Of a stretch of 18,108 nt of DNA, positions 519-18,108 are shown piece after piece. The stretch comes from Rhodospirillales bacterium (GTDB lineage Bacteria > Pseudomonadota > Alphaproteobacteria > Rhodospirillales_A > JACZKS01), in contig JABGRG010000084.1 in the NCBI GenBank assembly GCA_018648445.1, positions 1-18,108 on the forward strand, in the 5' to 3' direction. The position numbers were made by a program, and so were the translations under genes. The notes under the pieces were generated by a model. That model saw only the letters and a program-made list of their open reading frames with translations. It did not search any database and had not been told where the DNA came from. Every line of letters starts with the position of its first letter. The first letter of the stretch is position 1.

Positions 519-562
519 TCGTCGTGAAGATTGTCCGGACCCCCCTTGCGAAGCGAATTACG

Positions 563-2754: not shown

Positions 2755-3510
2755 CTATGGCACGGTCACCCGACCGCCGCTAACCGCCAGCGTTTGCCCG
2801 GAGATGTAGCTGGAGCGATCCGAGAGCAAGAAGACGACGGCGTCGGCTATCTCCTCGGGTTGGCCTATCCGTTTCAGCGGGGTAGCAGCAATCATTTTCG
2901 CACTGGCATCCGGGCCGACTTCGCTTCCCAGGTCGGTATCGATCAAGCCCGGAGCCACGCAATTGATGCGGACATTTGGCGCAAACACTTCGGAACAACT
3001 GCGGGCAAACGAAATCACCGCCGCCTTGGCGGCGCTGTAGCTGATCAGCGCAGGCCGCGCCCGCAGGGCGGCAATAGAAGCCACGCAAACGATACGCCCG
3101 TATCCGCGTTCGGCCATGCCCGAAGCCAGGGCGGCGACCGGCAGGAACGTGCCATCGGCATTGACAGACATCATCCACCGCCATGTTTCAAAGGACAGCT
3201 TGCCGTGTTCCTCTAAGGCTCCGTAACCGGCGTTGGTGACGAGAAGATCGACCGGACCGAGATCAGCTTCGATGGCCTCGATCATCCGATTTACCTGACC
3301 GGCGTCCGATACGTCGGCCTTGTAAGTGTGGCAATCAATGCCCTGCGCCGCGACGGCTGTGCGGGTTTCCTCCGCCGCCTCGTCATTGGCCACATAGTTG
3401 ATAGCGACAGCAACGCCCTCCGCCGCCAGAGCAAGCGACACCGCCCGCCCAATGCCGCGCGAGCCCCCAGTTACCAGCGCCGTTTTTCCGGCTAAGCCAC
3501 TGTTGTTCAT
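2755..3510 (-). CDS. FabG-like SDR family oxidoreductase
   Basis: A 251-residue classical SDR close to the 3-oxoacyl-ACP reductase/glucose dehydrogenase subgroup, NAD(P)H-dependent and cytosolic. It has TGGSRGIG at residues 14-21, TNAG in place of NNAG at 92-95, and catalytic Ser145, Tyr158 and Lys162. The C-terminus has the typical FLLSDRSSYISGQTLAVSGG ending. The Arg18 of the TGGSRGIG loop favours NADPH. Several in-frame starts exist (3552, 3531, 3513); ATG 3510 is chosen because AGAGG lies six bases upstream and because the earlier starts would overlap the preceding gene, which ends at 3528. No fatty-acid genes surround it, so it is not the housekeeping fabG; a catabolic or secondary role is likely. 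Confidence 0.92.
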   Translation of the reverse strand: MNNSGLAGKTALVTGGSRGIGRAVSLALAAEGVAVAINYVANDEAAEETRTAVAAQGIDCHTYKADVSDAGQVNRMIEAIEADLGPVDLLVTNAGYGALEEHGKLSFETWRWMMSVNADGTFLPVAALASGMAERGYGRIVCVASIAALRARPALISYSAAKAAVISFARSCSEVFAPNVRINCVAPGLIDTDLGSEVGPDASAKMIAATPLKRIGQPEEIADAVVFLLSDRSSYISGQTLAVSGGRVTVP

Positions 3511-3527
3511 CATATGCCTCTCTTCGC

Positions 3528-4211
3528 TCATTGCAGTGCGGGAAGCCGCCAACCAAGCCGGTAAACTTCTCCGCCCGCCTGCTGCACACTCAGTGAGAAC
3601 GCCTCAACCTCGTTCCAGTCATGCTCTGCGGGAAGTTGAATGGCAAGTCTTCCCCGCGCGGCGTACATGTTGCCTCCCATGGCGCGTTCCTTGGTCACGG
3701 CATACTCAAGCATATCAAACGTTTGCGAGCGTCCCGACCCGCTTTCGAATACGATTGCAAGGTTCTGTTTTTCAAGGCTTTCCCGCGTTTCGGAAATGAA
3801 GATGAAGGAAAAAACCATCTGTTCATCCGGATTGCGGAACGTTTCCAGCAACCGCTTGTCCGCCGCCGAGGGAGAAACCCGGTTTTTCACAGCCCAGGCG
3901 CGGCTTTCAAGAAAAAAAGTGGTCGGCAGAAACGGTGTTGCACCCGCAGATATCCAGGGTTTGGCTAGGTAGTCCGAAGACATGTTTGCCATTGAATGGT
4001 TATAAAACAGGCCGCCCCATCCGATTGTTGCTGCCTGAGTACGCAAGTGCTCTCTTGACGAGTCGTCGAATGGCGTATTCGGCCGGCCATCCAATGTCAA
4101 AATTCCCGCTGCAGCCGCAGAGAGAATCGCGAGTATCGACAGCGCAACGGTGGCTGCAAAAAGTGATAATCGGGAGCAAACATTACTGCGATATTTTAGC
4201 GTGGAGCTCAT
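3528..4211 (-). CDS. Unrecognised membrane-anchored protein
   Basis: A 227-residue protein that I cannot assign to a family. Residues about 14-38 form one long hydrophobic segment after a basic N-terminus, which looks like a signal anchor or an uncleaved signal sequence, so the rest probably faces the periplasm. The remainder is mixed alpha/beta in composition, with two Trp in the middle and two near the C-terminus, and no obvious cysteine pairs or repeats. The start is ATG 4211, with AAAGG eight bases upstream; a TTG at 4253 is less likely. It ends 17 bases before the start of the SDR at 3510 and is on the same strand, so the two may form an operon. The composition looks like a genuine gene; the function is unknown. 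Confidence 0.65.
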   Translation of the reverse strand: MSSTLKYRSNVCSRLSLFAATVALSILAILSAAAAGILTLDGRPNTPFDDSSREHLRTQAATIGWGGLFYNHSMANMSSDYLAKPWISAGATPFLPTTFFLESRAWAVKNRVSPSAADKRLLETFRNPDEQMVFSFIFISETRESLEKQNLAIVFESGSGRSQTFDMLEYAVTKERAMGGNMYAARGRLAIQLPAEHDWNEVEAFSLSVQQAGGEVYRLGWRLPALQ

Positions 4212-4315
4212 GTGTGGAACCTTTGCGACCAACTTTAGCCCGGACGGCGACAAACCGGTATATGGGTGCCAAACGCCAAATTTACATCACCACGGATGAT
4301 GGCGGGAAATCCACC

Positions 4316-4344
4316 TTGACTCTTTCCGATTTCTTAATGCTAAC
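4316..4344 (+). promoter_or_regulatory. Candidate promoter upstream of the PF07090 gene
   Basis: TTGACT at 4316-4321 is a five-of-six match to a sigma-70 -35 box and is followed 17 bases later by the poor -10 GCTAAC. The surrounding 4310-4430 stretch is clearly more AT-rich than its neighbours and precedes the first plus-strand gene of the sugar locus. Support is limited to position and one good hexamer. Confidence 0.22.
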
Positions 4345-4458
4345 TATTGGAGAACGAATGCGTAATGCAACCAAGAATGAATATATCTAGAAAAGAGAAT
4401 ATTGCACAAACAAAAAACTGACGATACGAGCATGGCAGTTTCCAAGGGGGAGGTAGCG

Positions 4459-5208
4459 ATGTCTGGTTCTGTTCTTTTTGTTGGAGAATCTTGGTCGTCG
4501 ATTGGGTTTCATTTAAAGGGCTTTTCCGTATACACTACAGGCGGGTATGAAGAGGGCGGAAAACCTCTGATTGATGCATTGGAGAACTCTGGGCATCCCG
4601 TAACCTACGTTCGCAACCACGAGGTTGATTCTCAGTTTCCCATTATCGCCAAAAAGTTGGAGAAATACGGCGCGGTCGTGCTTAGCGACGTGCCTGCCGA
4701 CACGTTTCTCTTACACCCCGACACCTTGGGCAAATCCATAATTCGACCCAACTCGCTACGCGAGATGGCCGAGTATGTGGAAAATGGCGGCGGTTTCCTG
4801 ATGGTTGGCGGGTACATGTCGTTTTCCGGTTTCGAGGGGAAGGCGCGCTACCAGAATACGGCAATAGCCGACATTCTACCGGTAACCATGCTCGGCACCG
4901 ACGACCGCATTGAAATGCCGGAAGGCGTGACCCCCGAAGTGGTGGCGGATCACCCGATATTGGAGGGATTGGAGGCGAAGTGGCCCCCGTTCCTTGGCTA
5001 CCAACGACTGGTGGCCAAGCCAGATGCCCAAGTGTTAATGACGATCGGAAACGACCCGTTCCTCGTTTTAGGTCGTTACGGTAAAGGGCGGGTTGCGGCG
5101 TTTGCGTCAGACTGTTCGCCCCATTGGGGCCCTCCCGAATTCCTTAATTGGCCGTCATACACGCCATTTTGGTCGCGTTTGATTGATTGGCTTTCCGAAA
5201 CCGACTGA
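4459..5208 (+). CDS. Glutamine amidotransferase-like protein (PF07090)
   Basis: A 249-residue cytosolic protein of the putative glutamine amidotransferase family (DUF1355, flavodoxin-like class I GATase fold). The N-terminal VLFVGESWSS and the GGGFLMVGGYMSFSG segment at residues 110-124 are typical of the family. At the nucleophile elbow (GGYMS, 117-121) there is no Cys; the only Cys is at 219 in a SDCSPHWGP segment. It therefore cannot work as a normal Cys-dependent amidotransferase and may be a binding or non-glutamine hydrolase variant. The start is set by GGGGGAGG five to six bases before ATG 4459; upstream in-frame starts lack this. It precedes the TRAP genes by 177 bases on the same strand. 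Family members often sit in sugar catabolic loci, which fits here; the role is not established. Confidence 0.85.
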   Translation: MSGSVLFVGESWSSIGFHLKGFSVYTTGGYEEGGKPLIDALENSGHPVTYVRNHEVDSQFPIIAKKLEKYGAVVLSDVPADTFLLHPDTLGKSIIRPNSLREMAEYVENGGGFLMVGGYMSFSGFEGKARYQNTAIADILPVTMLGTDDRIEMPEGVTPEVVADHPILEGLEAKWPPFLGYQRLVAKPDAQVLMTIGNDPFLVLGRYGKGRVAAFASDCSPHWGPPEFLNWPSYTPFWSRLIDWLSETD

Positions 5209-5385
5209 TTGAAGCCGTGCTCGGTTGAGCGAGAATTTGTTTGTCCGTGGCAAAGCGGACTGAGATTCCCGATCGGGCAGGGCTGGAGGAAAAACGTGGG
5301 GCGTCGCGATCCCGCGGGTAAGAAAAACGGTTGGCGGTCGTTTCATGATGGGGCGACCGAATGGAAAAAGTAGCAGGAGGTTTAC

Positions 5386-6444
5386 ATGAATTGTTTGGTG
5401 AAACTGTCCATGACTGCTGTGGCCGGGGCGGCGCTGCTGGCCTTGGCCGGAACCGCTGACGCAGCTGAGTTCAAGTTGCGTGTTACCAACCCCGACGCAC
5501 CGTATGTGTCGGTAAGCGGACTAAAATATCCGTATTACGTTTATGGCATGATGACCTCTTTTGCCAATACGGTTGAGGCGCTGTCAAAGGGTCGCATCGA
5601 CGCCGAAGTCTATCATAGCGGCACCCTTGGCGATCTGCGCGAAAACATGGAGTCCGTAAAACTTGGTGTCTTGGAAGCAACGACGCCGTCCGAAGGGCCG
5701 GTTTCAATTTGGTATCCGGACATCCAGGTGATTGCGATCCCTTATATCTTTAAGAACGCTGCCGTGGCTTGGGAAGTGATGGACGGGCCTTTCGGCCAGA
5801 AGCTGTTTGACGGCATGCAGGCTAAAGGTTTCCGCGCAGTCGGCATCGGTGAAAACGGTGGGTTCAGGATCTGGGGCAACAACGTGCGCCCGATCGAATC
5901 TCCGGCCGACATGAAGGGCATGAAAATCCGCACCATGCAGACTCCGGCCCATCAGGAAATGGTTCGCAGCCTGGGTGCCTCACCGACCGCAGTGCCGTGG
6001 ATGGAAGTCTACAACGCCCTGCAAACCGGTGTCGTCGATGGGGCCGAACTGCCGACCGTGGGCTCGCTCCAGCAGAACCTGCATGAAGTTCTGAAATACA
6101 TTACGGTGGATAGCCATGTGTACAGCCTGTCGCTGATCGTGGTTAGCGAAAAATGGTTCCAGAAACTGCCAGCCGACTTGCAAGAGGCGGTTTTGATTGC
6201 CGGTCGTATCAGCACGGTTACCAGCCGTGGCCTGGTGCAAACGGCGGTCGATGACGTGTTGAAATACTATGCGGAAGAGGCTGGTATCAAGGTATCCTTC
6301 GTTGCCGGTGCGGCCCAGGAAAAATTCCGCAATCTGGCTCAGCCCGGCGTCCTCAAGTGGATGCGCAAGCAGGTGGGTGACCAACTGGTTGACGAATTCA
6401 TGAAAGCCGTAAAAGCGGCCGAAGCGAAGCTAGGCATGAAGTAA
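5386..6444 (+). CDS. dctP: TRAP transporter substrate-binding protein
   Basis: A 352-residue periplasmic solute-binding protein of the DctP family, the high-affinity receptor of a TRAP transporter driven by a Na+ or H+ gradient. The signal peptide spans residues 1-26 (basic start, hydrophobic core, TADA cleavage site). The mature part shows the family pattern: KGMKIRTMQTPAHQEM, whose Arg normally binds the substrate carboxylate, followed by the SLGASPTAVPWMEVYNALQT and GVVDGAELP segment. AGGAGG five bases before the ATG is an optimal ribosome site. A 6-bp inverted repeat (CGGTCG 5335-5340, CGACCG 5354-5359) lies just upstream and could be a weak operator. dctQ and dctM follow. The conserved Arg suggests an acidic ligand such as a sugar acid, but the neighbouring sugar kinases suggest a sugar or polyol; the ligand is open. 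Confidence 0.94.
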   Translation: MNCLVKLSMTAVAGAALLALAGTADAAEFKLRVTNPDAPYVSVSGLKYPYYVYGMMTSFANTVEALSKGRIDAEVYHSGTLGDLRENMESVKLGVLEATTPSEGPVSIWYPDIQVIAIPYIFKNAAVAWEVMDGPFGQKLFDGMQAKGFRAVGIGENGGFRIWGNNVRPIESPADMKGMKIRTMQTPAHQEMVRSLGASPTAVPWMEVYNALQTGVVDGAELPTVGSLQQNLHEVLKYITVDSHVYSLSLIVVSEKWFQKLPADLQEAVLIAGRISTVTSRGLVQTAVDDVLKYYAEEAGIKVSFVAGAAQEKFRNLAQPGVLKWMRKQVGDQLVDEFMKAVKAAEAKLGMK

Positions 6445-6529
6445 CGTCGAGACTTACGGATAAGAGGGGCGGGGTGTGGGCCATGGGTCCGCGCCCTGTC
6501 TTCGCCGGTTATCAGAGGCCACTTCCTTC

Positions 6530-7072
6530 ATGATCACAACTTACAACCGTTTCGCCGAGATCGTCTCGAAGTTATCTCGCTGGGCTTGCATTATCAGCCT
6601 GAGCGCTATGACGATCGCGATTCTTATTAATGTATTTTTCCGTTATGTCCTGAATGATCCTTTGTCATGGCCGCCCGAATTTGCCCGCTTCACGCAGGTC
6701 GCCGTGACGATGCTGGCCAGCGGCCTTGCCGTGCGTTATGGCCGCCATGTAGGCGTTACGGTTCTGGTCATGCGCCTGCCCATGCGAATGCAAACGGCGG
6801 TCTTTATCGCAACCAATTTTCTGGTTCTGTGTTTTCTCGCCGTGGTGCTGTTTGAGGGCTACAAGCTGGCCTTTTTCGAGGGGCCGAGCCAACTTGCTCC
6901 GTCACTGCAAGTGTCGATGATGTGGGCGTTTATCGCGGTGCCCCTGGGGGCGTTTCTTATGATTGTTCATGTGATTGAGGTTTCGCTCAATGCCGTGGTC
7001 AATGCGCGCGTGGGACTATCGCCATATGCCCTTCCGGGTTCCGTTGAAAAAACCGAAGAGCCCGAGGGGTAG
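6530..7072 (+). CDS. dctQ: TRAP transporter small permease (DctQ)
   Basis: A 180-residue inner-membrane protein with four predicted helices. It carries the DctQ signature around residues 34-51 (VFFRYVLNDPLSWPPEFAR), in the loop between helices 1 and 2. DctQ pairs with DctM to form the TRAP translocator. ATG 6530 is used because the first helix then follows after a short tail; AGAGG lies 11 bases upstream, a longish spacing. The 85-base gap after dctP contains a G-rich potential stem (GGGCG at 6467-6471 with CGCCC at 6492-6496), of the kind that lowers permease expression relative to the binding protein. The dctM start follows nine bases after the stop. Confidence 0.92.
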   Translation: MITTYNRFAEIVSKLSRWACIISLSAMTIAILINVFFRYVLNDPLSWPPEFARFTQVAVTMLASGLAVRYGRHVGVTVLVMRLPMRMQTAVFIATNFLVLCFLAVVLFEGYKLAFFEGPSQLAPSLQVSMMWAFIAVPLGAFLMIVHVIEVSLNAVVNARVGLSPYALPGSVEKTEEPEG

Positions 7073-7081
7073 GAAACGGCA

Positions 7082-8377
7082 ATGGATGCATCACTTCTAA
7101 TTTTCCTGCTTTTCTTTGTCCTGCTACTGCTAGGGATGCCCATCGCGTTCGTGCTTGGGATTACCGGGACGGCGGCACTTTTGCTGCAAGGAGACCTCCT
7201 TTTCCTATCCTTGGTGCCGCAACGAATGTTCGCCGGTCTCAATATGTTCACCATCATGGCAATCCCGTTCTTCTTCCTTGCCGCCGAGTTGATGTCGGCG
7301 GCCCGCATAACTGAGGATTTGATCAAGTTTGCCGACGCCATCGTCGGGCGGATCAAGGGTGGCCTCGCCCACGTTAACATCGTCGCCTCCATGTTTTTTG
7401 CGGGAATTTCCGGTTCAGCCATATCCGACGTAGCGGGCCTGGGCTCCATCGAAATCAAGGTAATGACGAAGGCCGGATATCCATTGAAATTCGCCGCCGC
7501 GCTCACCGTCGCATCATCGCTGATCGGGCCGATGATTCCGCCCAGTATTATCATGGTGATCTACGGCTCGATTATGCAGGTCTCGATCGCCGCCATGTTC
7601 ATCGGCGGCCTGATTCCGGGCGTGCTTATGGCGCTGATGCTGATGACCATGGTTCGCTTCATGGCCGGAAAATACAATTTCCCAAGGCGAACCGAGAAAA
7701 TGCCACTTCCCCAGATTTGGCAGGCGACAAAGAATTCCATCCTCGCGTTGATTATGCCGGGCATTATTCTCGGCGGCATTCTTTCGGGTGTGTTCACCGC
7801 CACCGAGGCGGCTGCGGTTGCCGTGCTCTACGCCTTCCTCATCGGTTTTTTTGTTAAGCGCACACTTCGGCTTCACCACCTTCCGGAAATTCTGCATAAA
7901 GTATCGATCCTGACTTCGGTGGTGTTCATGGTGCTGGCCTCGGCCAGTATCGTCGCCTGGTACATTGGGCTTGAACGACTGCCCGCCGGCATCGCCAAGG
8001 CGATGACCGATATTACCGAAAACCCCTATCTGCTGCTGCTTCTTGTCAATCTGCTGTTGCTGGTTGTCGGCATGTTCATGGATATCGGCGCGGCAGTTAT
8101 TGTGATGGCACCAATTCTCGCCCCGACCATGGTCGAATATGGCGTCCACCCGGTCCATTTCGGTATTGTCATGTCGATCAACCTGCTGCTTGGCCTCAAC
8201 ACCCCGCCTGTTGGGCCTTGTCTGTTCGCGGCAGCCGGTATCACCGGCCTGAGGATTGAGGATATCTCTGTGGCCTTGCTGCCAATGTACCTGTTGCAGG
8301 TGATTTTTCTTCTTCTGGTCACCTACATCCCGGCGCTGACACTGACCCTGCCGCAATGGTTCGGCTACATTAAATAA
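7082..8377 (+). CDS. dctM: TRAP transporter large permease (DctM)
   Basis: A 431-residue, highly hydrophobic protein of the DctM family (about 12 helices), the ion-coupled translocation subunit of the TRAP system. Family features include the N-terminal LLLLGMPIAFVLG, the FFAGISGSAISDVAGLGSIE segment around residue 105-120, PSIIMVIYGSI, and the GLNTPPVGPCLFAAAGIT segment near residue 370-390, which is conserved in the second half. The length is typical for the family. The ribosome site AGGAAACGG lies just before the ATG. It is co-transcribed with dctQ and with the PfkB kinase gene, which begins 12 bases downstream. Confidence 0.95.
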   Translation: MDASLLIFLLFFVLLLLGMPIAFVLGITGTAALLLQGDLLFLSLVPQRMFAGLNMFTIMAIPFFFLAAELMSAARITEDLIKFADAIVGRIKGGLAHVNIVASMFFAGISGSAISDVAGLGSIEIKVMTKAGYPLKFAAALTVASSLIGPMIPPSIIMVIYGSIMQVSIAAMFIGGLIPGVLMALMLMTMVRFMAGKYNFPRRTEKMPLPQIWQATKNSILALIMPGIILGGILSGVFTATEAAAVAVLYAFLIGFFVKRTLRLHHLPEILHKVSILTSVVFMVLASASIVAWYIGLERLPAGIAKAMTDITENPYLLLLLVNLLLLVVGMFMDIGAAVIVMAPILAPTMVEYGVHPVHFGIVMSINLLLGLNTPPVGPCLFAAAGITGLRIEDISVALLPMYLLQVIFLLLVTYIPALTLTLPQWFGYIK

Positions 8378-8388
8378 CGGAGGAACAT

Positions 8389-9315
8389 ATGGCCGAAGCC
8401 GGTGTTGTTATTCTCGGTGTATACGTAGCTGACTTGGCCTTTTGGGCGGAACGCCTGCCGGTCATGGGTGAAACCCTGCTGGGTGGAAATTTCAAGATCG
8501 GGCCGGGCGGCAAGGGTTCCAATCAGGCCGTGGCGGCGCGGCGCGCCGGCGGTGACGTCGCCTTTATCAGCAAGGTGTCGGACGATGAATTCGGTGCGAT
8601 GGCGCGCGCCATGTATGAATGCGAAGGGATCGACCAAAACCATGTTTACCCGAGTGACGTTGCAACCGGTGCTGCATTTATCATGGTTCAGGAAAAAACC
8701 GGTGAGAACGCCATCATCATATACCCGGGTGCCGCCGAGACGTTGACAAACGAGGAAGTCGAAGCGGCCTCGCCGGTGGTTGCCGGGGCTCGGGTTTTCG
8801 TTACCCAATTGGAATTAAAGATGCCCCAGGTGGAGTGCGGTCTGGCCCTGGCCCGAAAACATGGCGTGTCGACCGTCCTTAACCCGGCACCAGCGATGGT
8901 ATTGCCCGATCATATTTATCCGATGGTTGACAACTTTACTCCCAACGAGAGTGAAGCCGCGGCGTTGGCCGGTTGTCCCGTCGAAAATGTCGCGCAAGCG
9001 GAGCAGGCGGCTGAGATTTTCATCGCCCGCGGCGTCGGCGCGGTTCTCGTGACCCTGGGTGGTGACGGCGTCCTGGTCAAGGATGAGCAAGGTGCGACCC
9101 ACATTCCTGCATTCGACATGGGGACCCCGGTTGACACCACCGGGGCCGGGGATGCTTTCAACGGCGGTTTTGCCGTAGGCCTTGCCGAAAACATGGATGT
9201 GCGCGAAGCCGCGCGATTTGGTTGCGCGGTCGGTGCGTTGTCGGTGACCCGGCAAGGGACTGCGCCTTCTATGCCCTCGCGGGACGAGGTTGAGGAACTT
9301 CTGCAAAAGCCCTGA
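8389..9315 (+). CDS. Ribokinase-like PfkB sugar kinase
   Basis: A 308-residue cytosolic kinase of the PfkB family, ribokinase branch, which phosphorylates a sugar hydroxyl with ATP. Motifs in order: GPGGKGSNQAVAARRAG near residues 38-54 (PfkB signature 1), QLE with Glu142, NPAPAM at 165-170, TPNESEA at 184-190, and DTTGAGDAFNGG at 249-260 with the catalytic base Asp255. Compared with E. coli RbsK from memory, Asp16, Lys43, Asn46, Glu143 and Asp255 are kept (here Asp15, Lys42, Asn45, Glu142, Asp255), but the ribose ligand Asn14 is Val13 in the sequence LGVYVAD. The substrate is therefore probably not ribose itself. GGAGG five bases before the ATG and the 11-base gap after dctM make it the last gene of the TRAP operon. 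Confidence 0.93.
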   Translation: MAEAGVVILGVYVADLAFWAERLPVMGETLLGGNFKIGPGGKGSNQAVAARRAGGDVAFISKVSDDEFGAMARAMYECEGIDQNHVYPSDVATGAAFIMVQEKTGENAIIIYPGAAETLTNEEVEAASPVVAGARVFVTQLELKMPQVECGLALARKHGVSTVLNPAPAMVLPDHIYPMVDNFTPNESEAAALAGCPVENVAQAEQAAEIFIARGVGAVLVTLGGDGVLVKDEQGATHIPAFDMGTPVDTTGAGDAFNGGFAVGLAENMDVREAARFGCAVGALSVTRQGTAPSMPSRDEVEELLQKP

Positions 9316-9333
9316 ATACTAACCGGCGTGTAT

Positions 9334-9963
9334 TTAGGCAAAAAAATCCAGGATACCCGATAGGTCGCACACGATATGGTCGGCCTCAATGCGGGGCGCG
9401 CCGACACACTGAAATCCAACTGCGTACAGTCCGGCGGCCGTGGCCGACGCAAGTCCGGCCTCGCTGTCTTCAACGGCGAGAATTTCGTGCGGCGGGGCAC
9501 CGAACTGTTTGGCCGCCAGCAAATACGGTTCGGCAGATGGTTTCCCTTTCGTGACGTCGTCGAAGCTAATGCTAAACTCGATAGCCTCGGCGATGCCCAG
9601 TGCATTCAGGTTGGCGTTGACAATAACCCGTTCGGAGTTCGACACGCAGGCTTGACGAATTCTCATATCGGCAAGAGCACGTACCGTTTTTACTGCCCCC
9701 GGCATCTCGACGAGTTCGCCCTGGCGTTCAACGTAAAAACGGTTGATTGCATCGAGCCAGACGGTCTCCTCTAGCCCTGCCGGCAACCGGGTGCGGACCC
9801 GAAGCCAGACATCCGCCATATGAATGCCGAGGAATTCATCAGCGGGCAGATCCGAAAGATCGGCACCGAAGGAAAGGCAAGTCGCCAGCAGCGCCCGAAG
9901 ATGTAACGGCTCACTATCAACCAGTGTGCCGTCGATATCCCATGCGACGGCGCACGGCTTCAT
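9334..9963 (-). CDS. HAD hydrolase, beta-phosphoglucomutase-like
   Basis: A 209-residue cytosolic phosphatase or phosphomutase of HAD subfamily IA, beta-PGM-like. The catalytic Asp9 and Asp11 are in WDIDGTLVDSEP. The cap domain spans about residues 18-85, motif II Ser108 is in VSNSE, motif III Lys141 is in KGKPSAEPY, and motif IV Glu165-Asp166 is in VEDSEAG. All catalytic positions are intact. Its ATG overlaps the TGA of the FGGY kinase (ATGA at 9960-9963), so it is translationally coupled and belongs to the same pathway. It probably dephosphorylates or isomerises a sugar phosphate made by the kinases, or acts as a house-cleaning phosphatase. Its 3' end lies only 18 bases from the end of the convergent PfkB gene, with no clear terminator between them. 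Confidence 0.92.
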   Translation of the reverse strand: MKPCAVAWDIDGTLVDSEPLHLRALLATCLSFGADLSDLPADEFLGIHMADVWLRVRTRLPAGLEETVWLDAINRFYVERQGELVEMPGAVKTVRALADMRIRQACVSNSERVIVNANLNALGIAEAIEFSISFDDVTKGKPSAEPYLLAAKQFGAPPHEILAVEDSEAGLASATAAGLYAVGFQCVGAPRIEADHIVCDLSGILDFFA

Positions 9964-11471
9964 GCCGTGGCTCCTAAATCCGCTTCGCGCAGTTTATTGT
10001 AAAGATCGCGAAATCGCTGATATCCGGCGCGGTAGGTTTTCGCGTTGGCCGGGTTTGGCTGCAAGCGGTCGGCCAAACTGACGAACTTCATGATTCCCCC
10101 CCAATCGTCGACCAGTCGGGTGCCAATGGCCGCCGTCCACGCCGCCCCCATACACGAGCCGGGGTGCCCCGACAGGCGCTGCACCGGAGATTCGAGAACG
10201 TCGGCAACGATCTGCATCCAAATTTCGCTGTGCGATCCGCCGTCGGAGACGATAAACCGGTCCGTCCGGTAGCCGATGTCGTCCAGCACTTCAACATGGT
10301 GGCGGATGGCATAGGCATAGGCTTCAAGAAGTGCGCGCCAAAGATGGCCTATATCGTGGGAAAAGGTCAGTCCGTCAAACATGCCACGCGCCGACGGGTC
10401 GTGAACCGGCGTCTTCTCGCCGAGGAAATAGGGCAAGACTATCAGGCCGTCAGAGCCAGCCGGGCAATCAACTGCTAACCGGTCAAGGTATTGGTGAACG
10501 GAGACACCCTCTCTTTGCGCCGTTGCCGCCTCGCCACCGGCAAAGGTCTTGACGAACCAGTTCAGTCCCGAACCTCCGGTCGACATGCAGCCGTTCGGCA
10601 TAAACAGTCCGGGCACTAGGTGATAATCCAGATAAAGCCTAGCGTCGGGCCGGACTTGATCGGTGGCGATCAGGATATCGACGGCACCGCCAAATTTCAC
10701 AAGAACGTCTCCGGCCTCGACAATGCCTGCACCAAGGGCCGAGGCGATCATATCGGCTGCGCCCCCAACCACAGGAGTGCCGGCTGCAAGACCCGTTTCC
10801 GCCGCACCGCGCGCGTCGACCCTCCCGAGTATGTGGTGCGAGTTTACCTTACGCGGTATTGCCGAGCGCGGGACGTGGGCAAGGGCGACAAGATCATCAT
10901 CGATGCTGTGGGTGGAGATATCGACAAAGCCAGCTTCAAGCGCCCAGTTTTGTTCGATGGCCCGCTCTCCGGTCAGGCGAAAGTTGATGTAGTCGTAGGA
11001 ACCCATCACGGTCGCGATGCTCGCGAAGATCTCTGGTTCGTGGCGTTCGATCCAGCGCAACTTGGCGGTGACGAGTTGTTGGTTGATACCGTTACCGGCT
11101 TTTTCAAGAAAGGCGGCTTCGTCAAATTCATTGCGAAGCTCGGCGGCTTCTGCGCTGCAACGTCCATCGCTTTGCTGGATGCTGGGACGAAGCAGTTCCC
11201 CGTCATCATCAAGAAGCACCACCGCGGGCAGCATGCCGGTAGTTCCGATAGCGGTGATTTCGGCTGGAGACACGCCCGCCGTGGAAATCAGATCGGCGAT
11301 GATGGCGCGGGAGTTGTTCCACCATTCAAGTGGGTCTTCCTCGGCCCATCCGGCATGGGGCGAGCTCAGATTTACCGGTCGGGACGCAATGGCCAGCACC
11401 TCATCGGGCGCCCGAACGAAAATGCCGGTCGTCGAGGTGGTGCCGATATCGATGCCAAGAACGATGCTCAT
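9960..11471 (-). CDS. FGGY family carbohydrate kinase
   Basis: A 503-residue cytosolic sugar kinase of the FGGY family (xylulokinase/gluconokinase/glycerol kinase fold: two actin-like ATPase domains). N-terminal phosphate loop GIDIGTTSTTG at residues 6-16; GWAEEDPLEWW at 41-51; the catalytic Asp240 in GGAADMIASALG; STGGSG at 297-302; LPYFLGEKTP at 346-355; and the C-terminal signature DGGSHSEIWMQIVADVL at 410-426. The length is typical. The start is ATG 11471; GGGAGG lies about 11 bases upstream and the start follows the BtpA-like stop by 16 bases, whereas the TTG at 11507 would overlap that gene. It most resembles xylulokinase-like members, but FGGY specificity cannot be read by eye; candidates are ketopentoses, polyols and aldonates. 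It is the middle gene of the three-gene minus operon. Confidence 0.94.
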   Translation of the reverse strand: MSIVLGIDIGTTSTTGIFVRAPDEVLAIASRPVNLSSPHAGWAEEDPLEWWNNSRAIIADLISTAGVSPAEITAIGTTGMLPAVVLLDDDGELLRPSIQQSDGRCSAEAAELRNEFDEAAFLEKAGNGINQQLVTAKLRWIERHEPEIFASIATVMGSYDYINFRLTGERAIEQNWALEAGFVDISTHSIDDDLVALAHVPRSAIPRKVNSHHILGRVDARGAAETGLAAGTPVVGGAADMIASALGAGIVEAGDVLVKFGGAVDILIATDQVRPDARLYLDYHLVPGLFMPNGCMSTGGSGLNWFVKTFAGGEAATAQREGVSVHQYLDRLAVDCPAGSDGLIVLPYFLGEKTPVHDPSARGMFDGLTFSHDIGHLWRALLEAYAYAIRHHVEVLDDIGYRTDRFIVSDGGSHSEIWMQIVADVLESPVQRLSGHPGSCMGAAWTAAIGTRLVDDWGGIMKFVSLADRLQPNPANAKTYRAGYQRFRDLYNKLREADLGATA

Positions 11472-11487
11472 GTGCGCAGGGACCTCC

Positions 11488-12288
11488 CTAGCGGAGAGAT
11501 TCGACAACGTCCATGAAACGCTTTACCCGGGATCCGTCCACCGGATTCCAGGTGTCACCGTCGACCTTGAAATGGGTGCCGATGATAACACCCTGAGCCA
11601 AGGAAAAAATGTCTCGGATGTTATCGAGATTGGCCCCGGTATTGGCGAAAACGGGCACGTCCGTGACCGCCTGGCAAACCTTTTTCAGATCCGATTGGTC
11701 GGCCGGTTGGCCGGTAATCGGGCCGGAAACGAGGATGGCGTCGGCCTTGGATGAAAATACAGCGCTTTTGGCGCGCAGCTCGATTGGCCGCTGGTCCAGC
11801 GAATGGGCAAACTCGGCGTTGATGTTGAACAGCATCTTCATGTCGTCGCACCCAAGATTATGACGAAGGCGCGCGGCTGCCGCGCAATCGGGTTGCCACA
11901 ATCCCATATCGGAAGCGAACAGACCGGTAAATATCTCGCGAACAAAATTAGCGCCGGTGGCCGCTCCGATGGCGACACTTGCCACGGGGTCCCACAGGTA
12001 GTTCACACCGAAAGGAACGGTGAGCGATGGCTTGACGGCCTGAATGACGGCGGTCATCGCCGCGATGCCTTCGGGCGTTGCCTGAAAAACATATGGGCGG
12101 TCGTTTTCGTTGCCGAACATGATGGCATCCACCCCGCCCGCCTGCAGGTTTTCGGCATCGGCCATCACATCGTCGGTCAATTTCTGAATGCCGCCGTCTG
12201 GATCGTAGAGCGGAGCCCCCGGCAACGCGCCGATATGGGCCATGGAAATAACGGCCTTCGTCCTGTTCCCAAAAAAATCGAACACCAT
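11488..12288 (-). CDS. BtpA/SgcQ family TIM-barrel protein
   Basis: A 266-residue cytosolic protein of the BtpA family (PF03437), a TIM barrel. Recognisable blocks are KAVISMAHIGALPGAP at residues 11-26, FGNENDRPY at 58-66, the PFGVNYLWDP-containing strand at 92-101, ATGANFVREIFTGLF at 110-124, VSGPITGQP at 187-195, and the phosphate-gripper-like IIGTHFKVDG at 235-244. The family name comes from a cyanobacterial photosystem I protein, but in heterotrophs members such as SgcQ lie in sugar loci, as here. The enzymatic activity is unproven; an aldolase-like or isomerase-like step on a sugar phosphate is a reasonable guess. GGAGG ten bases before the ATG sets the start. It is the first gene of the operon with the FGGY kinase and HAD genes. 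Confidence 0.92.
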   Translation of the reverse strand: MVFDFFGNRTKAVISMAHIGALPGAPLYDPDGGIQKLTDDVMADAENLQAGGVDAIMFGNENDRPYVFQATPEGIAAMTAVIQAVKPSLTVPFGVNYLWDPVASVAIGAATGANFVREIFTGLFASDMGLWQPDCAAAARLRHNLGCDDMKMLFNINAEFAHSLDQRPIELRAKSAVFSSKADAILVSGPITGQPADQSDLKKVCQAVTDVPVFANTGANLDNIRDIFSLAQGVIIGTHFKVDGDTWNPVDGSRVKRFMDVVESLR

Positions 12289-12559
12289 ATCTTCCGTTCC
12301 TCCCCATTATTGTCTTTTTCGGGTTATCCATGAGCCGGTTTTGGTCGGCCATGAACGAGAACACGTATCTCGACCACCCGTTGCCGTCATTGATGCCCGG
12401 AGTTTTGCAACGCGATTTGTCAGGTTTGCGGACGATCGCAAGATTGGCTGAAAGCCCAGAAACAACCATCCGCGACGAAGTCAGCGATAGCCCCCCAAGC
12501 ATCTGGAATTTAGATTAATTATGCCCTTGTTTTGATGTTAAGCGGCAACCGGCTGTCGT

Positions 12560-12589
12560 TGCAACCAACAATTTCGTTTGATGGTTGCA
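12560..12589. promoter_or_regulatory. Operator-like inverted repeat
   Basis: TGCAACCA at 12560-12567 and its reverse complement TGGTTGCA at 12582-12589 flank a 14-base spacer. The left arm is part of GTTGCAAC, itself a perfect palindrome. Centre-to-centre spacing is 22 bases, about two helical turns, which suits a dimeric or tetrameric repressor. It lies 272 bases upstream of the btpA-like start in a gene-free stretch. No regulator gene is in the window to pair with it. Confidence 0.3.
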
Positions 12590-12759
12590 CGGCGGAATTT
12601 TGTGCTTGGCCTGCTAATTTAACGGAATCGAATCAAATGAACCCGAAGGAGAAATCCCCTCATCAGACAATAATAACGCCTTCGACCAAAATATGGGCTC
12701 GCGTGTTCGCAACCGTCGCCGTCTGCAAAGCTTGACCCTGTCTGATATTGACGGTGGGA

Positions 12760-12775
12760 TGTGATTTAGGTCACT
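12760..12775. promoter_or_regulatory. CRP/FNR-superfamily-like binding site
   Basis: The sequence TGTGATTTAGGTCACT matches the E. coli-type CRP consensus TGTGA-N6-TCACA at every conserved base except the last. Its centre (12767.5) is about 44 bases before the likely first base of the candidate small RNA, close to the class II activator position. Alphaproteobacterial CRP/FNR relatives often use other half-sites (for example TTGAT), so which factor would bind is open. Confidence 0.35.
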
Positions 12776-12808
12776 GCGATATTGTCAAAAAAATGTTTTT
12801 ATCATTAT

Positions 12809-12894
12809 GTCAGATGAGGTTCTTTCTCCGCGCATCATGCGCGTCTCTGACAACCTCCCTGTTAAACTTGCCGGGCCTTCGGGCCCGGTTTTTT
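12809..12894 (+). ncRNA. Candidate orphan structured small RNA
   Basis: There is no protein gene upstream on this strand, yet a very strong terminator is present, so something non-coding appears to be transcribed. The preceding bases hold a CRP-like site (12760-12775) and a -10-like TATCAT (12800-12805). The 86-base segment contains a 6-bp hairpin CGCGCA/TGCGCG with loop TCA (12829-12843). It also has two perfect 6-bp complementarities in crossed order: GTCAGA (12809-12814) with TCTGAC (12846-12851), and GAGGTT (12816-12821) with AACCTC (12852-12857). Crossed pairs imply either an H-type pseudoknot or two alternative folds. It ends in the UUCG terminator hairpin and a U6 tract. I do not recognise it as 6S, tmRNA, SRP RNA or a known riboswitch. 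Confidence 0.38.
12870..12894 (+). terminator. Strong UUCG-loop Rho-independent terminator
   Basis: CCGGGCC (12871-12877) pairs with GGCCCGG (12882-12888) around the extra-stable loop TTCG and is followed by six T (12889-12894). The reverse strand lacks a T run after the hairpin, so it acts only on plus-strand transcripts. It lies 201 bases before the DUF1349 gene and does not follow any visible protein gene. Confidence 0.88.
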
Positions 12895-13095
12895 GCGTTA
12901 TCTCTTTCGCATCACGACACACGACACACGATACTGGGGGTACATAGCGCTTTCCCTTAAGAAGACCACCGTGATTGATCGCAAGAATCCCTTGAAACGT
13001 CCACTTCTCGGGATTGACAAAGTATCTGATGACGGACATGAAACTGGGGTCATTGAGACGATCTGAGGACCCGGCGACTGAAAGGCGGGCGTTCG

Positions 13096-13671
13096 ATGAA
13101 AATTTCCGGAATCGTGAACAAGGACAAATTGGATTGGTCAGAAGAAGGCGGCCAGCTCTCGATGCGAGTAGCTGGCAAAACAGATTTCTTTCTCGATCCT
13201 GCCGAGCAATACACAGCAGACAGCGCACCGATTCTTTTTCAGGAAATACCGAACGTCGATTTCTCGTGTGAGGTGACCATTCGTTCGGAGTTGGCGAGTA
13301 CGTTTGACGCCGCCGGGTTTTTCTTGCGCTGCGGTACAGACTGGTATTTGAAATTCGAGGCGGAACGTGCGCCGACCGGAGAGTTGCTGATCGTATCAGT
13401 GTTGACGACGGGTTTCTCCGATGATTGCAACGGTCCAGAAGTCTCGGGTCCAGTAACACTGCGCGCCAACCGGATCGGCAATACAGTGTCAATGCACTTG
13501 AAATTAGAGGATAGCAGCTGGCGGCTAATCCGTTATTGCCGTCTGCCAAGTCCAGGCGCCCTGGAGCTCGGTTTCACCGTTCAATCCCCTTTGGGCGGAG
13601 GCGTTTATGCAACGTTCTCTGATGGACATATTTCCGAGAATGTCCCCCAAGACATCCGATCAGGCACCTAG
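13096..13671 (+). CDS. DUF1349 domain protein
   Basis: A 191-residue soluble protein of the DUF1349 family, a concanavalin-A-like beta-sandwich related to yeast regulation-of-enolase protein 1. Family features: a Trp-containing first strand (LDWSEEGG), FFLDP near residue 31-35, the FDAAGFFLRCGTDWYLKFEAE segment at about 70-90, LLIVSVLTTGFSDD near 97-110, and VTLRANRIGNTVSMH at about 119-133, then SSWRLIRYCRL. No signal peptide is present, so it is likely cytosolic. AAAGGCG lies 8-9 bases before the ATG. It stands alone, with 201 bases to the upstream terminator and 467 bases to the next element downstream. Members are thought to bind or act on carbohydrates, but no activity is established. 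Confidence 0.85.
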   Translation: MKISGIVNKDKLDWSEEGGQLSMRVAGKTDFFLDPAEQYTADSAPILFQEIPNVDFSCEVTIRSELASTFDAAGFFLRCGTDWYLKFEAERAPTGELLIVSVLTTGFSDDCNGPEVSGPVTLRANRIGNTVSMHLKLEDSSWRLIRYCRLPSPGALELGFTVQSPLGGGVYATFSDGHISENVPQDIRSGT

Positions 13672-14138
13672 TGTGAATACTTTTCCGTCCTAGGCGGGGC
13701 TGATCGCCTATGGTGTTCTTTCATTCATGCTGATTGGTGCGATCGCAACCTCCGACGACACATCTATGCCCCTGTTTCAAGAGGACCTTGAGCTCTCTCT
13801 GAGTCACTGGAGGCAAACACTTGGTCGTTACGGCATTGAGTCTCTTATTGGCTAAAAACAGCCGTTCAACACCGAGCGACGTGACGGCTGCTTTTCGGGG
13901 GTAAGCCGACATTTTGCGCGTTTATGCCCGCTGTCGAGGGCAAAGCAGACCAATTTTGGGGCTGGCTCTTACGACCGTTGATGACCCGAAGCGGACACTC
14001 GCAACGAAGTCGCTAAAGGTTCAAATGGAAAAGTTGGTTGTTGAAAAAAAACCCGCCTGCCGGAAGCGCGAAGCAGGCGGGTCGGAGGAAGCGTTCTCTG
14101 TCATTTGTCGGAAATGACGGAACGCCGGGAGGACGTGC
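13672..14138. other. 467-base gap with a possible membrane-protein remnant
   Basis: From 13694 to the TAA at 13853-13855 one plus frame reads 53 residues: a hydrophobic stretch (GLIAYGVLSFMLIGAIA), then an amphipathic tail ending in HWRQTLGRYGIESLIG. It has no good start or ribosome site, and a stop (TAG 13691) precedes it. It is followed at once by a weak hairpin (CAGCCGT 13859-13865, ACGGCTG 13884-13890) and CTTTTC. It could be the 3' end of a lost gene. The rest, to 14044, holds the motif AAGCGGAC at 13989-13996 and nothing else I can name. The right end is the terminator of the Ldh_2 operon. Confidence 0.4.
14044..14082 (-). terminator. Rho-independent terminator of the ABC/PAL-like/Ldh_2 operon
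   Basis: On the minus strand a perfect 10-bp stem, ACCCGCCTGC paired with GCAGGCGGGT, encloses a 12-base loop and is followed by seven more T. It lies 56 bases downstream of the Ldh_2 stop codon. The plus-strand reading has no T run, so it ends only the minus operon. Confidence 0.9.
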
Positions 14139-15218
14139 TCACAGGGAGTTCGGGGCACGGTCCACAGAGGTGAATTTTTGCATCTCGATACCAAATTTTC
14201 CTGCCCAACCGTTCAATTCATCCAAATCCTTCCGGGCGAAGACCAAGCCGTCGCGTCGCGCAATTTCCGCCGCCATTGCTTCGGGTTCCCCTGGAACCAA
14301 AACAGCTTCGAAGCCATCGGCGCGGGGACAGCCGCGGATCCGGGCAACGAGTTCGTTCATCCGAACCGCGAAATCACCGGCGGGAAGGAATAGGTCCGGT
14401 CGAAAGACCATGAAAAAATGTCCGACATTTTGCGGAGCTTCGAAGTCAATGTTCTGATTGCCGACCTCACCGCCGAACGCCGCGCCTGAGACGACACCGG
14501 AAAGCGCATCAACCATCAGGGCCAAGCCGGATCCCTTGGCGCCGCCCAACGGCAGCACGACACCTCGCAGAGCCGCAGCGGCATCCGTCGTGGGTTGCCC
14601 ATATTCATCGAGCGCCCAGCCGGTCGGAATTGTCTCACCTTGGTTAGCAGCGCGGCGAATTTTCCCTTTCGCGACCGTCGATGTCGCCATATCCAGCATC
14701 AGCGGAGAATCGCCACCGGGCATGGCGAGACCAATGGGATTGGTGCCCAGAAGTGGTTTCTTACCGCCCCAAACGGCCATCGCCGGCGGGGCATTGGTCA
14801 GCACCATCGCCGCCAAACCGGCATCCAACGCCTGCTGCAGGTAATTGGCCGCAATGCCGAAATGGTTACTGTTAAAGACGGCGGCCACTGCGACGCCGAA
14901 AGCCTCGGCACGGTCAATGGCCTCGTTCATGGCACGCCGCGCGACGATAAACCCCAATCCATTGTCACCGTCCACATGAACGGCGGCGGGTGCAGCCTCA
15001 CGCACCTTGATTTCAGGGGGTGTTTTGACAATCCCTTGTTCGAGGCGGCGCAGATAGACGGGCAACCGCGCGACACCGTGTGAGCGCACACCGCGCAGGT
15101 CGGCCTCAACCAGGTATTCTGCCACACCTCGCGCGTCAGGTGTCGGAACGCCGACTGCCGTGAACAAATCAGCCGCGAAACGTGTCAGCTGCTCGGGGGC
15201 AATGACGACCGTGTTCAT
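14139..15218 (-). CDS. Ldh_2 family (malate/L-lactate-type) dehydrogenase
   Basis: A 359-residue cytosolic NAD(P)-dependent oxidoreductase of the Ldh_2 family (PF02615). The family includes archaeal malate dehydrogenase, ureidoglycolate dehydrogenase AllD, sulfolactate dehydrogenase ComC and piperideine-2-carboxylate reductase. Visible hallmarks: [18 protein letters not shown] (residues 38-55, His47), the catalytic-type His119 in [16 protein letters not shown] at 153-162, LDMATS at 175-180, KGKIRRA at 184-190, and the cofactor loop [15 protein letters not shown] at 223-237. The start is ATG 15218, whose ATGA overlaps the upstream ATPase stop; longer frames would run deep into that gene. Substrates of the family are 2-hydroxy or 2-keto acids and relatives. 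Its place behind the PAL-like lyase and peptide transporter genes suggests it handles glyoxylate or an alpha-hydroxyglycine derivative. Confidence 0.93.
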
Positions 15219-16264
15219 GAATTTTCGCCGGTGTGCTCGGCCAGGGGCCAGTTGACCCCCTGTTCGTGCAGGTGGCAGGATACCTGGTGCCCCGGTTCGA
15301 CCTCTCGGAGAACCGGGGTGTCCGTTTTGCAGCGGTCCATCGCATAAGGACAACGGTTATGGAAGTGGCAGCCCGGTGGCGGCTTGATGGGGCTCGGCAC
15401 ATCGCCGGTCAGGATGATCCGCTCCCGACGCTCGGCGTTCGGGTCAGGCAGCGGAACGGCCGAGAGCAGAGCTTCTGTGTAAGGATGCAGCGGCTTCGCG
15501 AACAGGGCCTTCTTTTCGGCCAGTTCAACTATCCTTCCCAAATACATCACCGCGATACGATGGCTTATGTGCTGAACCACCGCCAAGTCGTGAGCGATGA
15601 AAAGGTAGGACAGGTCCAGATCCTTTTGCAGATCGATCAGCAGATTGATCACCTGCGCCTGGATCGAGACGTCAAGGGCCGAGACCGGTTCGTCGCATAT
15701 AATCAGGCTGGGATGTAGCGACAATGCGCGAGCGATGCCGATACGCTGGCGCTGTCCGCCGGAAAACTGGTGCGGGTACTTGGCCATGGATTCCCGCGAC
15801 AGCCCGACCCGTTCGAACAGGGTAGCGACTTGCTCCTCCTTCTCGCGTCCCGACGCCAGCCCGTGAATGGTCAAGGGTTCTCCGACGATGGCGCCCGCCG
15901 ACATGCGCGGGTTCAGCGACGAATACGGATCCTGGAAAATGATCTGCATGCCACGGCGATAGGGGCGCATGGCTTCCGGCTTCAACGGCGTGATGTCCTG
16001 GCCGTCGAAATGCACAGTGCCGTCGGTGGGCTCGATCAGCTTCAGGACGCCCCGGCCAACGGTGGATTTGCCGCCGCCGCTCTCGCCCACCAAGCCGAGG
16101 GTCTCGCCGCGCCCGATATGGAATGACACCCCATCAACGGCATGAACGTGGCCGACAGTCTGCGACAGGAGCCCCTTGCGGATTGGGAAATGAACCTTCA
16201 GGTCGGCGACTTCGAGCAAGGGTGTCGTTTCGGTCGCGGCGGTGGGGGAGGTGGGCGTGTTCAT
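15215..16264 (-). CDS. Peptide-type ABC transporter ATP-binding protein (DppF/OppF-like)
   Basis: A 349-residue ATPase of the dipeptide/oligopeptide/nickel ABC importer group. Walker A is GESGGGKST at residues 60-68, the Q-loop is Gln111 in [12 protein letters not shown], the signature is SGGQRQR at 168-174, Walker B is LIICDEP at 187-193, and the H-loop is His225. The C-terminal oligopeptide-type extension has four Cys (299, 305, 312, 330), as in members that bind an iron-sulfur cluster. It is the second ATPase that pairs with the DppD-like subunit at 17272. The start is ATG 16264, with GGGGA seven bases upstream and a four-base gap after the propeller stop; a longer frame to 16306 would overlap that gene. 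The permeases and binding protein must lie outside the window to the right, or elsewhere. Confidence 0.93.
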
Positions 16265-16268
16265 GGCG

Positions 16269-17267
16269 TCATCCCCGGCGAATGAATTTCTGGAAACAGC
16301 GGGCATTCAACGGATCTTCGGGGCAATGGTGGCGGGCGCCGCCCGAGGTCTGAGACACTTCGCCGACATAGAGGCTGCCTTCGCTGTCAACCCAGAGACC
16401 ATGGGGCGCGATGAAGTTGCCCGGCAGCACCGCTTCATGTCCGCCGATCTGCTTGATGATTTCGCCGTCAGGATTGCACACGCTCACGCGGGCGATGGGG
16501 TCGTGCCCCGGTTTCGGGTAAAAGCAGTTACGGAAATGCAGGCTTGGCTTGGCTATGACGAACCCCAACTCCGCGATGTAAATGGTGTCCTCAGCATCAA
16601 TGAAGATGTCGGTCGGGCGGCTGACCCAGTCCCAGACGCGCTGGAATTCGCCGTCGCCGGAAAAGATCTGGATTCGCGAATTTTCGCGGTCGCACACATA
16701 GACTTGGCCTTGACTGTCGACCCCAATTCCGTGCGGCAGGTTGAACTCGCCGAAATCGTTACCTTGCTCACCCCAGGTATTGAGCAGCGTCCCTTCGGGC
16801 GAAAAACAGTGGACCCGCGCATTGCCGTATCCGTCGGCGGCATAAATACGCCCGTCGGGAGCAAGCGCAACGTTGGTAACCTCGTTGAAGGGTCCGGCGG
16901 ACTGCATGACCGGTGACGCGCCGCGTTCGAATCCGGTTTCCGATTTGGCGCCGCCGATCCGCATTTGTCGGTTGCCGTCCAGATCGTATTTGAAGACCGA
17001 ATGCCCTTCGTCGTCGACCAAGAATACCTCGTCCTTCGCCGAGATATAGATGCCGTGCGGACGGCTGAAGTCATCTTCGCCCCAGGCATCGAGGAACTTG
17101 CCATCCTTGTCGAAGACGATGACGGGATGATCGCCACGACAGTAGACGTAGACTCGGTCGCTCGAATCCACGGCCACCCCCGCGACCTCGGTAAATGACC
17201 ATCCCTCGGGCAACTTTTCCCAGCTTTGAACGACATCGAATTCAAGATTGTGGGGACCAGTCGCCAT
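16269..17267 (-). CDS. NHL beta-propeller, PAL-like (alpha-hydroxyglycine amidating lyase type)
   Basis: A 332-residue six-bladed NHL propeller. Aligned by eye with my memory of the rat peptidyl-alpha-hydroxyglycine alpha-amidating lyase (PAL) sequence, the catalytic set is present. Arg44 in CRGDH matches Arg533; His71 in RPHGI, His179 in LPHGI and His289 in APHGL match the zinc ligands His585, His690 and His786; Tyr147 in DGYGNAR matches Tyr654. Met784 of rat is Ala287 here. PAL cleaves N-acyl-alpha-hydroxyglycine to an amide plus glyoxylate. There is no signal peptide, so it should act in the cytosol, and no copper monooxygenase partner is nearby. AGGAGG eight bases before the ATG; the gene lies four bases from each flanking ATPase gene. 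A non-enzymatic NHL scaffold is the alternative. Confidence 0.82.
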
Positions 17268-17271
17268 CGCC

Positions 17272-18108
17272 TCAGCCTCCTATTTCCGCAGCGATGACGG
17301 TCTCGAGGACATGGCAGGCGCGGGCCCGGCCGGGACCGCCCGCTTCGCGCAAGTCCGGAATCTCGCTCGTGCACCGTTCGGTGGCGAAGGGACAGCGCGG
17401 ATGAAAGGCGCAGCCCGACGGAATATGCGCCAGATCCGGCGGTTGACCGGGAATCGGCACCAGCCGACGATCCGTCTCGCCGACATGGGCGATCGATGTC
17501 AGCAGGCCCAGGGTATAAGGGTGGGCGGGGCGGGCGAACACGTCACGGACCGTGCCGGTCTCTACCACCCTGCCGGCATACATGACCGACACGTGGTCGG
17601 CAATCTCGGCCACCACGCCCATGGAGTGGGTGATCAGGATCAAGCCCAGCCCCTGTTCACGCTGCAATTTTTTCAGCAGGTCGAGAATCTGCGCTTCGAC
17701 AGTCACATCCAGCGCCGTCGTGGGTTCGTCGGCGATGACCAGTGCAGGATCGACGGCCAGCGCCATGGCGATGATGACACGCTGACGCATGCCGCCGGAA
17801 AATTGGTGCGGGAAATCGTCGAAACGGTCGCGCACGCTGGGAATGCCGACCCGCTCCAACAATTCCAAGGCGCGTTCGTCGGCCTCTTGCTTCGATGCAC
17901 CAAGATGCACGCGGACCATTTCGGACAATTGCCAACCCACAGTGAAGACCGGATTCAGGGAAGACAGCGGGTCCTGAAAGATCATCCCGATATGGCGGCC
18001 GCACATGGAGCGGCGTTCGCGGGCCGGCAGATCGAAGAGATTGCGTCCCTGATAACGCGCCTGGCCGCCGGGGACGAAGCCGGGCGGCGGTTCCAAAATT
18101 CCCCACAC
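17272..18108 (-). CDS. Peptide-type ABC transporter ATP-binding protein (DppD-like), partial
   Basis: The last 278 residues of a DppD/OppD-type ATPase; the gene continues past the right edge of the window, so about 50 N-terminal residues, including Walker A, are missing. In fragment numbering the Q-loop is Gln45 in MIFQDPLSSLNPVFTVG, the signature is SGGMRQR at 104-110, Walker B is ALVIADEP at 122-129, and the H-loop is His161. The C-terminal extension keeps four Cys (233, 239, 246, 265), typical of the oligopeptide subgroup. The GTG at the very edge is not the real start. It is the first visible gene of the minus operon and is followed after four bases by the propeller gene, an unusual insertion between the two ATPase genes. 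Confidence 0.93.
   Translation of the reverse strand: MWGILEPPPGFVPGGQARYQGRNLFDLPARERRSMCGRHIGMIFQDPLSSLNPVFTVGWQLSEMVRVHLGASKQEADERALELLERVGIPSVRDRFDDFPHQFSGGMRQRVIIAMALAVDPALVIADEPTTALDVTVEAQILDLLKKLQREQGLGLILITHSMGVVAEIADHVSVMYAGRVVETGTVRDVFARPAHPYTLGLLTSIAHVGETDRRLVPIPGQPPDLAHIPSGCAFHPRCPFATERCTSEIPDLREAGGPGRARACHVLETVIAAEIGG

Follow-up and report, generated by a model that had tools for sequence, protein, structure and literature searches.

A putative cytosolic PAL-family lyase encoded within a Dpp-type importer operon of a Rhodospirillales bacterium

An 18,108-nucleotide stretch of DNA from a Rhodospirillales bacterium (GenBank assembly GCA_018648445.1, contig JABGRG010000084.1, positions 1 to 18,108 of the forward strand; hereafter the window) carries, between two ATPase genes of a Dpp-type importer, a gene whose product is placed by sequence comparison in the family of PAL, the enzyme that finishes peptide hormones in animals. 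The protein is assigned to this family, and not to the bare NHL scaffold proteins, because six active-site positions have been kept in bacteria and animals alike. We propose, at about even confidence, that it is a zinc lyase of the cytosol, encoded in a catabolic operon, that would cleave a hemiaminal with release of glyoxylate; the proposal draws on the conserved residues, on analogy with rat PAL and on the genes surrounding its relatives, which hint at the breakdown of nutrients. A catabolic role that is cytosolic and linked to both an importer and a dehydrogenase is a hypothesis that is supported but unproven.

Active-site residues and fold

A Pfam scan of the gene product returned NHL repeats and six-bladed propeller families (NHL at 4.1e-28), and comparison with rat PAL (PDB 3fvz) gave E-values of 5.1e-20 with phmmer and 3.7e-29 with a profile, the two proteins being 27% identical over 280 aligned residues. 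The AlphaFold2 model of the protein (mean pLDDT 91.5) had rat PAL 3fvz as its top Foldseek match (E 8.1e-19, 365 columns), and a PHG motif occurs at the equivalent place in blades 2, 4 and 6, the assignment of blades being our own. The rat PAL sequence was verified against PDB 3fvz before alignment, and all six of its active-site residues have an aligned, identical counterpart in the window protein. The gene and the codons located by this alignment are as follows.

16269..17267, minus strand: PAL-family NHL beta-propeller gene, open reading frame of 332 amino acids (start ATG at 17265-17267, stop TGA at 16269-16271)
17136..17138, minus strand: Arg44 codon (rat Arg533)
17055..17057, minus strand: His71 codon (rat zinc ligand His585), blade 2
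16827..16829, minus strand: Tyr147 codon (rat Tyr654)
16731..16733, minus strand: His179 codon (rat zinc ligand His690), blade 4
16686..16688, minus strand: Arg194 codon (rat Arg706)
16401..16403, minus strand: His289 codon (rat zinc ligand His786), blade 6

A preliminary description of this DNA had named Arg44, His71, Tyr147, His179 and His289 as the counterparts of rat residues 533, 585, 654, 690 and 786, and they stand and align exactly so; Arg194 adds a sixth. An alignment of bacterial and animal-type sequences shows each of the six positions kept in 255-256 of its 256 bacterial rows and in 101-102 of its 102 animal-type rows. With at most one deviating row apiece, the five named residues are not there by chance, and relatives devoid of the histidines and the tyrosine, which the same description had foreseen as the mark of a plain scaffold, did not emerge from this alignment.

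By analogy with rat PAL, His71, His179 and His289, from the alternate blades 2, 4 and 6, would hold zinc in the central channel, and Tyr147 together with Arg44 and Arg194 would bind and activate a compound with the general formula R-CO-NH-CH(OH)-COO-, the breakage of whose N-C bond would yield an amide and glyoxylate. The neighbouring genes suggest, less firmly, that the importer may supply either this substrate or its unhydroxylated precursor, and that the 2-hydroxyacid dehydrogenase of the same putative operon may reduce glyoxylate to glycolate or, alternatively, act directly on the alpha-hydroxyglycine by oxidizing it, much as ureidoglycolate dehydrogenase oxidizes ureidoglycolate.

Differences from animal PAL and cellular location

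The window protein shares with rat PAL (PDB 3fvz, 5wm0) the propeller fold and residues Arg533, His585, Tyr654, His690, Arg706 and His786, but it has no PHM domain, no visible signal peptide, no disulfide cysteines, Gly in place of Asp787, and no counterpart of the insertion that follows Arg533 in the rat enzyme. At the four animal disulfide positions (Cys634, 655, 702 and 713), 94-101 of the 102 animal-type rows have cysteine, as against 0-1 of the 256 bacterial rows; such cysteines characterize the animal branch, which is secreted, and are no part of PAL chemistry. Asp787, which we take to be a calcium ligand of rat PAL, corresponds to Gly290; 250 of the 256 bacterial rows have Gly at this position, and 98 of the 102 animal-type rows have an acidic residue there (Asp in 86, Glu in 12). 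No long hydrophobic stretch was found within residues 1-40, where the highest 12-residue Kyte-Doolittle mean is 1.03, nor does the window protein show the secretory location that is a feature of the PHM and PAL peptide amidation system. The lack of a hydrophobic N-terminus, of Asp787 and of the disulfide cysteines fits a protein working in the reducing cytosol, and supports the location proposed in the preliminary description.

The operon

The PAL gene is accompanied by the following features.

17272..18108, minus strand: DppD/OppD-like ABC ATPase gene, truncated by the window end (ABC_tran and oligo_HPY)
17276..17281, minus strand: candidate ribosome-binding site of the PAL gene, AGGAGG, within the 3' end of dppD, as read from the sequence
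15215..16264, minus strand: DppF-like ABC ATPase gene (ABC_tran and oligo_HPY; NF008453 at 423.9 against a cut-off of 408 bits)
14139..15218, minus strand: Ldh_2-family 2-hydroxyacid dehydrogenase gene (PF02615, 4.5e-122)

The position of the PAL gene between two Dpp-type ATPase genes, noted previously, is confirmed by the coordinates: four bases separate the dppD stop (end 17272) from the PAL start, and four the PAL stop from the dppF ATG (16262-16264). For dppF the longest open reading frame begins at 16306, a start that would give an overlap of 38 bases with PAL. Read from the ATG at 15216-15218, the Ldh_2 frame overlaps the end of dppF by four bases. Because of these gaps and this overlap, dppD, PAL, dppF and Ldh_2 look like one operon, and the spacing across the four genes suggests coupled translation. 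Both flanking ATPases combine ABC_tran with the oligo_HPY C-terminal region typical of Dpp/Opp importers; among NCBIfam models, the truncated DppD-like protein scores highest with those for Dpp/Opp ATPases, at values below their cut-offs. Within the window, which stops inside dppD and leaves the region upstream of that gene outside view, the operon shows neither a permease nor a binding-protein gene for the importer.

Bacterial relatives

That bacteria possess PALs as such is already known. The preliminary description had seen in a bacterial, cytosolic, transport-coupled PAL a different use of this chemistry; its case is weakened in so far as bacterial PALs are familiar both from relatives that NCBI names as PAL (P0024, P0046 and P0105, at 64, 59 and 57% identity, under similarity-based names that state no further function) and from the PAL of Exiguobacterium sp., a reagent enzyme. 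One report describes the expression of the latter and its use alongside rat PHM to amidate peptides (PMC9155641), another its engineering for denaturant tolerance (PMC11685837). Literature searches, limited to open-licence papers, brought up no work on what bacterial PALs do in nature or on the genes around them.

At E <= 1e-10, 6366 proteins match the window protein, not all of them necessarily PALs; among the best 120, which were examined, the closest (P0001) is 91% identical. Relatives are encoded in 348 stretches of the species-genome collection, the top 80 of which were retained as 79 loci, and among 385 genomes sampled from the class to which genome G007 belongs, 36 carry a match with an E-value of 1e-40 or below. 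Gene neighbourhoods were surveyed in 122 loci, the window included, with a PAL open reading frame above 200 bits (one further locus, L148, falls below). A search for closer relatives with a dpp operon, covering two orders (15 and 14 genomes), gave nothing with an E-value of 1e-133 or below, a result that proves little.

Some metagenome-assembled genomes (MAGs) carry PAL-family genes in tandem, with six in L009 (9001-15173), four in L007 (7874-12094) and two in L027 (3-2000), and there are ten PAL-family matches in genome G002 and nine in G004. The titles of five MAGs, namely L036, L038, L039 and L044 (Bordetella parapertussis) and L053 (Klebsiella pneumoniae), look wrong, since the genes around PAL in them are arranged much as in environmental MAGs of the same set.

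Dehydrogenases and importers beside PAL

Once three duplicate loci had been removed (L117, L118 and L150, duplicating L032, L042 and L006), there were 125 adjacent genes on the same strand within 250 bases of PAL, 122 of which were submitted to Pfam, three PAL copies being excluded (two in L007, one in L027). The family most often found directly beside PAL was D-2-hydroxyacid dehydrogenase (2-Hacid_dh_C, 15 of 122), to which the preliminary description had made no reference, with TctC and Glyoxalase at 11 each, Ldh_2 and Amidohydro_3 at 7 each, ABC_tran at 5 (in a scanned set that contains the two ATPases of the window) and SBP_bac_5 at 3, in a ranking of the best 25 of 84 families. By our own profiles, 18 of the 89 loci with an operonic neighbour have a 2-Hacid or an Ldh_2 gene there (13 and 7, two loci having both). 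Single-linkage clustering collapsed the 120 loci to between 6 and 16 groups, and greedy clustering at 65% identity was used instead; it gave 19 clusters, and a 2-hydroxyacid dehydrogenase stands beside PAL in 5 of the 17 that have an operonic neighbour. The presence of two unrelated dehydrogenase families next to PAL is the best hint to its chemistry.

Enrichment was assessed in a class sample of 53 loci, in which neighbours were observed with our profiles and expected values came from whole-genome Pfam family counts in 45 PAL-bearing genomes, the higher first-look candidate number serving as the SBP_bac_5 background wherever the count for that family had reached its ceiling. Genes for 2-Hacid_dh proteins were found at 6 loci within 1.5 kb (1.3 expected) and at 9 within 5 kb (3.4 expected), and those for SBP_bac_5 proteins at 5 within 1.5 kb (1.5 expected) and 12 within 5 kb (3.6 expected); the p-values, both here and for the clusters above, are crude, as clusters offer several chances and the loci are related. 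The idea of a transport-coupled PAL, as put forward in the preliminary description, is thus upheld in so far as a Dpp-type binding-protein neighbourhood recurs, but it is not universal, and Dpp is one of several importer types near bacterial PALs, TctC receptors adjoining PAL more often than SBP_bac_5 proteins do. In the context search for PAL beside dppD and dppF that was suggested there, the dppD-PAL-dppF order is present in the window but in no other of the 122 loci. The earlier interpretation as a whole is partly supported. On plasmid pSfreNXT3a of Sinorhizobium fredii, Rieske, VanB-type reductase and VOC genes are followed by PAL and then by a complete ABC importer laid out in the Dpp manner (ATPase, binding protein, two permeases, ATPase), of which an ATPase matches our Dpp profile. 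In L075-L078, PAL is followed by Ldh_2 and Peptidase_C15-like genes, and a PQQ-dehydrogenase-like gene precedes it in L076-L078.

Several observations weigh against a catabolic, importer- and dehydrogenase-linked lyase. Ldh_2 is unenriched in the class sample (1 of 53 at either distance, with 0.6 expected within 5 kb), and in the window dppF stands between Ldh_2 and PAL. Eight of the 13 operonic 2-Hacid loci are alike (L052, L057-L059 and L061-L064, from MAGs titled Binatia or Binatota in seven cases and Desulfurellaceae in one), which inflates the counts, and five of the 12 SBP_bac_5 loci (L028, L031, L116, L117 and L118) share one PAL-amidohydrolase-SBP arrangement, so that the independent cases number about eight. 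The neighbours of PAL are highly varied (TctC, glyoxalase-fold, amidohydrolase and others), which implies that there is no single substrate. To these may be added the replacement of Asp787 in nearly all bacterial rows, the outcome of a Pfam scan of 15 window proteins, which revealed no oxygenase for making the hydroxylated substrate, and the fact that no activity or metal data for the bacterial PAL branch were found.

Source of the hydroxyl group and alternative readings

In agreement with the preliminary description, no copper monooxygenase occurs among those 15 proteins (two short-chain dehydrogenases/reductases and a DctQ-like open reading frame are among the proteins outside the scan), and PF03712, the PHM family, was found in none of the 45 PAL-bearing genomes, but this search was equally silent in 14 control genomes and so carries no weight. 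It is conceivable that an intracellular oxygenase of another kind, Rieske or luciferase-like flavin, hydroxylates an N-carboxymethyl-like compound which the PAL-type protein then cleaves, as the hemiaminal lyase of an oxidative N-dealkylation. A precedent is the methylguanidine pathway, whose operon encodes, besides an ABC importer, the dioxygenase MgdH and the hemiaminal lyase MgdL; the authors give PAL as the sole similar activity known to them and MgdL as lacking sequence homology to it (PMC12508155). The likeness to the role proposed for the window protein is one of a catabolic hemiaminal lyase in an importer operon, the lyases being unrelated in sequence. The gene order in S. fredii also favours an oxygenase partner, and in L122 (5644-9888) the PAL frame and that of a Rieske oxygenase of the LigXa type overlap, stop to start, by a single base, and a flavin monooxygenase-like gene follows; from its gene order this PAL-Rieske pair might be the equivalent of PHM-PAL without copper. 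Nine loci have a luciferase-like monooxygenase gene no more than about 500 bases from PAL, but in eight of these it is on the opposite strand, and the count is a raw one, uncorrected for background. As Rieske genes occur within 6 kb of PAL in just three loci (L081, L121 and L122, the last two by a one-seed profile), and as the scanned window proteins include no oxygenase, this alternative is considered unlikely.

Ureidoglycolate is the carbamoyl analogue of an N-acyl-alpha-hydroxyglycine, and the protein could be a lyase of this or another N-carbamoyl-hydroxyglycine in ureide catabolism, with Ldh_2 as an AllD-like dehydrogenase acting on the same compound. The relatives of the window Ldh_2 are sulfolactate, malate/lactate and ureidoglycolate dehydrogenases, and it matches models of the last (226.8 and 214.7 bits) as well as their structures; yet the cut-offs of those models are 356 and 496.2 bits, no NCBIfam model is matched above cut-off, and the scores to sulfolactate and malate dehydrogenases are higher. 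With no allantoin-pathway family among the 15 scanned window proteins or the best 25 of the 84 neighbour families, a ureide lyase seems quite improbable. We attach a similarly low likelihood to an accidental insertion of PAL into the dpp operon, with a substrate unrelated to the importer: bacterial PAL genes are found in many contexts and the dppD-PAL-dppF order is confined to the window, but the spacing suggestive of coupled translation and the enrichment of Dpp-type binding proteins near PAL argue otherwise. Least probable is that the protein serves merely as a non-catalytic NHL scaffold or binding protein, which would have no reason to keep six positions across bacteria and animals and which this conservation disfavours, fold scores and search ranks being unable to discriminate; five aligned TRIM71 repeats (8j72) have no His at the His179 position, and the NHL scaffold domains of Thin, TRIM71 and Brat lack the full active-site set in repeat-shifted alignments, a weak control.

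Returning to the cytosolic PAL-family lyase, a wider scenario may be offered, tentatively and with considerable doubt, whereby it belongs to a widespread catabolic branch of bacterial PALs in which the copper monooxygenase is replaced by another hydroxylation or by import of ready-made hydroxyglycine conjugates, glyoxylate passes to one of two unrelated 2-hydroxyacid dehydrogenases, and the animal hormone enzyme branched off from a nutrient-scavenging lyase as a secreted form with calcium and disulfides. If this were true, the enzyme that makes animal hormones would have a large bacterial branch in catabolism, which would bear on the origin of animal peptide amidation, and cytosolic, disulfide-free PALs would be on offer as reagents. 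The neighbours of PAL provide direct candidates for assay, namely the importer ligand, glyoxylate and glycolate.

Other genes of the window

A separate cluster at 4402-12288 encodes a glutamine amidotransferase-like protein, a TRAP transporter (DctP, DctM), a PfkB kinase, a HAD phosphatase, an FGGY kinase and a BtpA-family protein, and from these families it looks like a system for the uptake and phosphorylation of a sugar-like compound. On the minus strand at 3528-4253 there is an open reading frame of 241 residues with no Pfam match at 1e-5.
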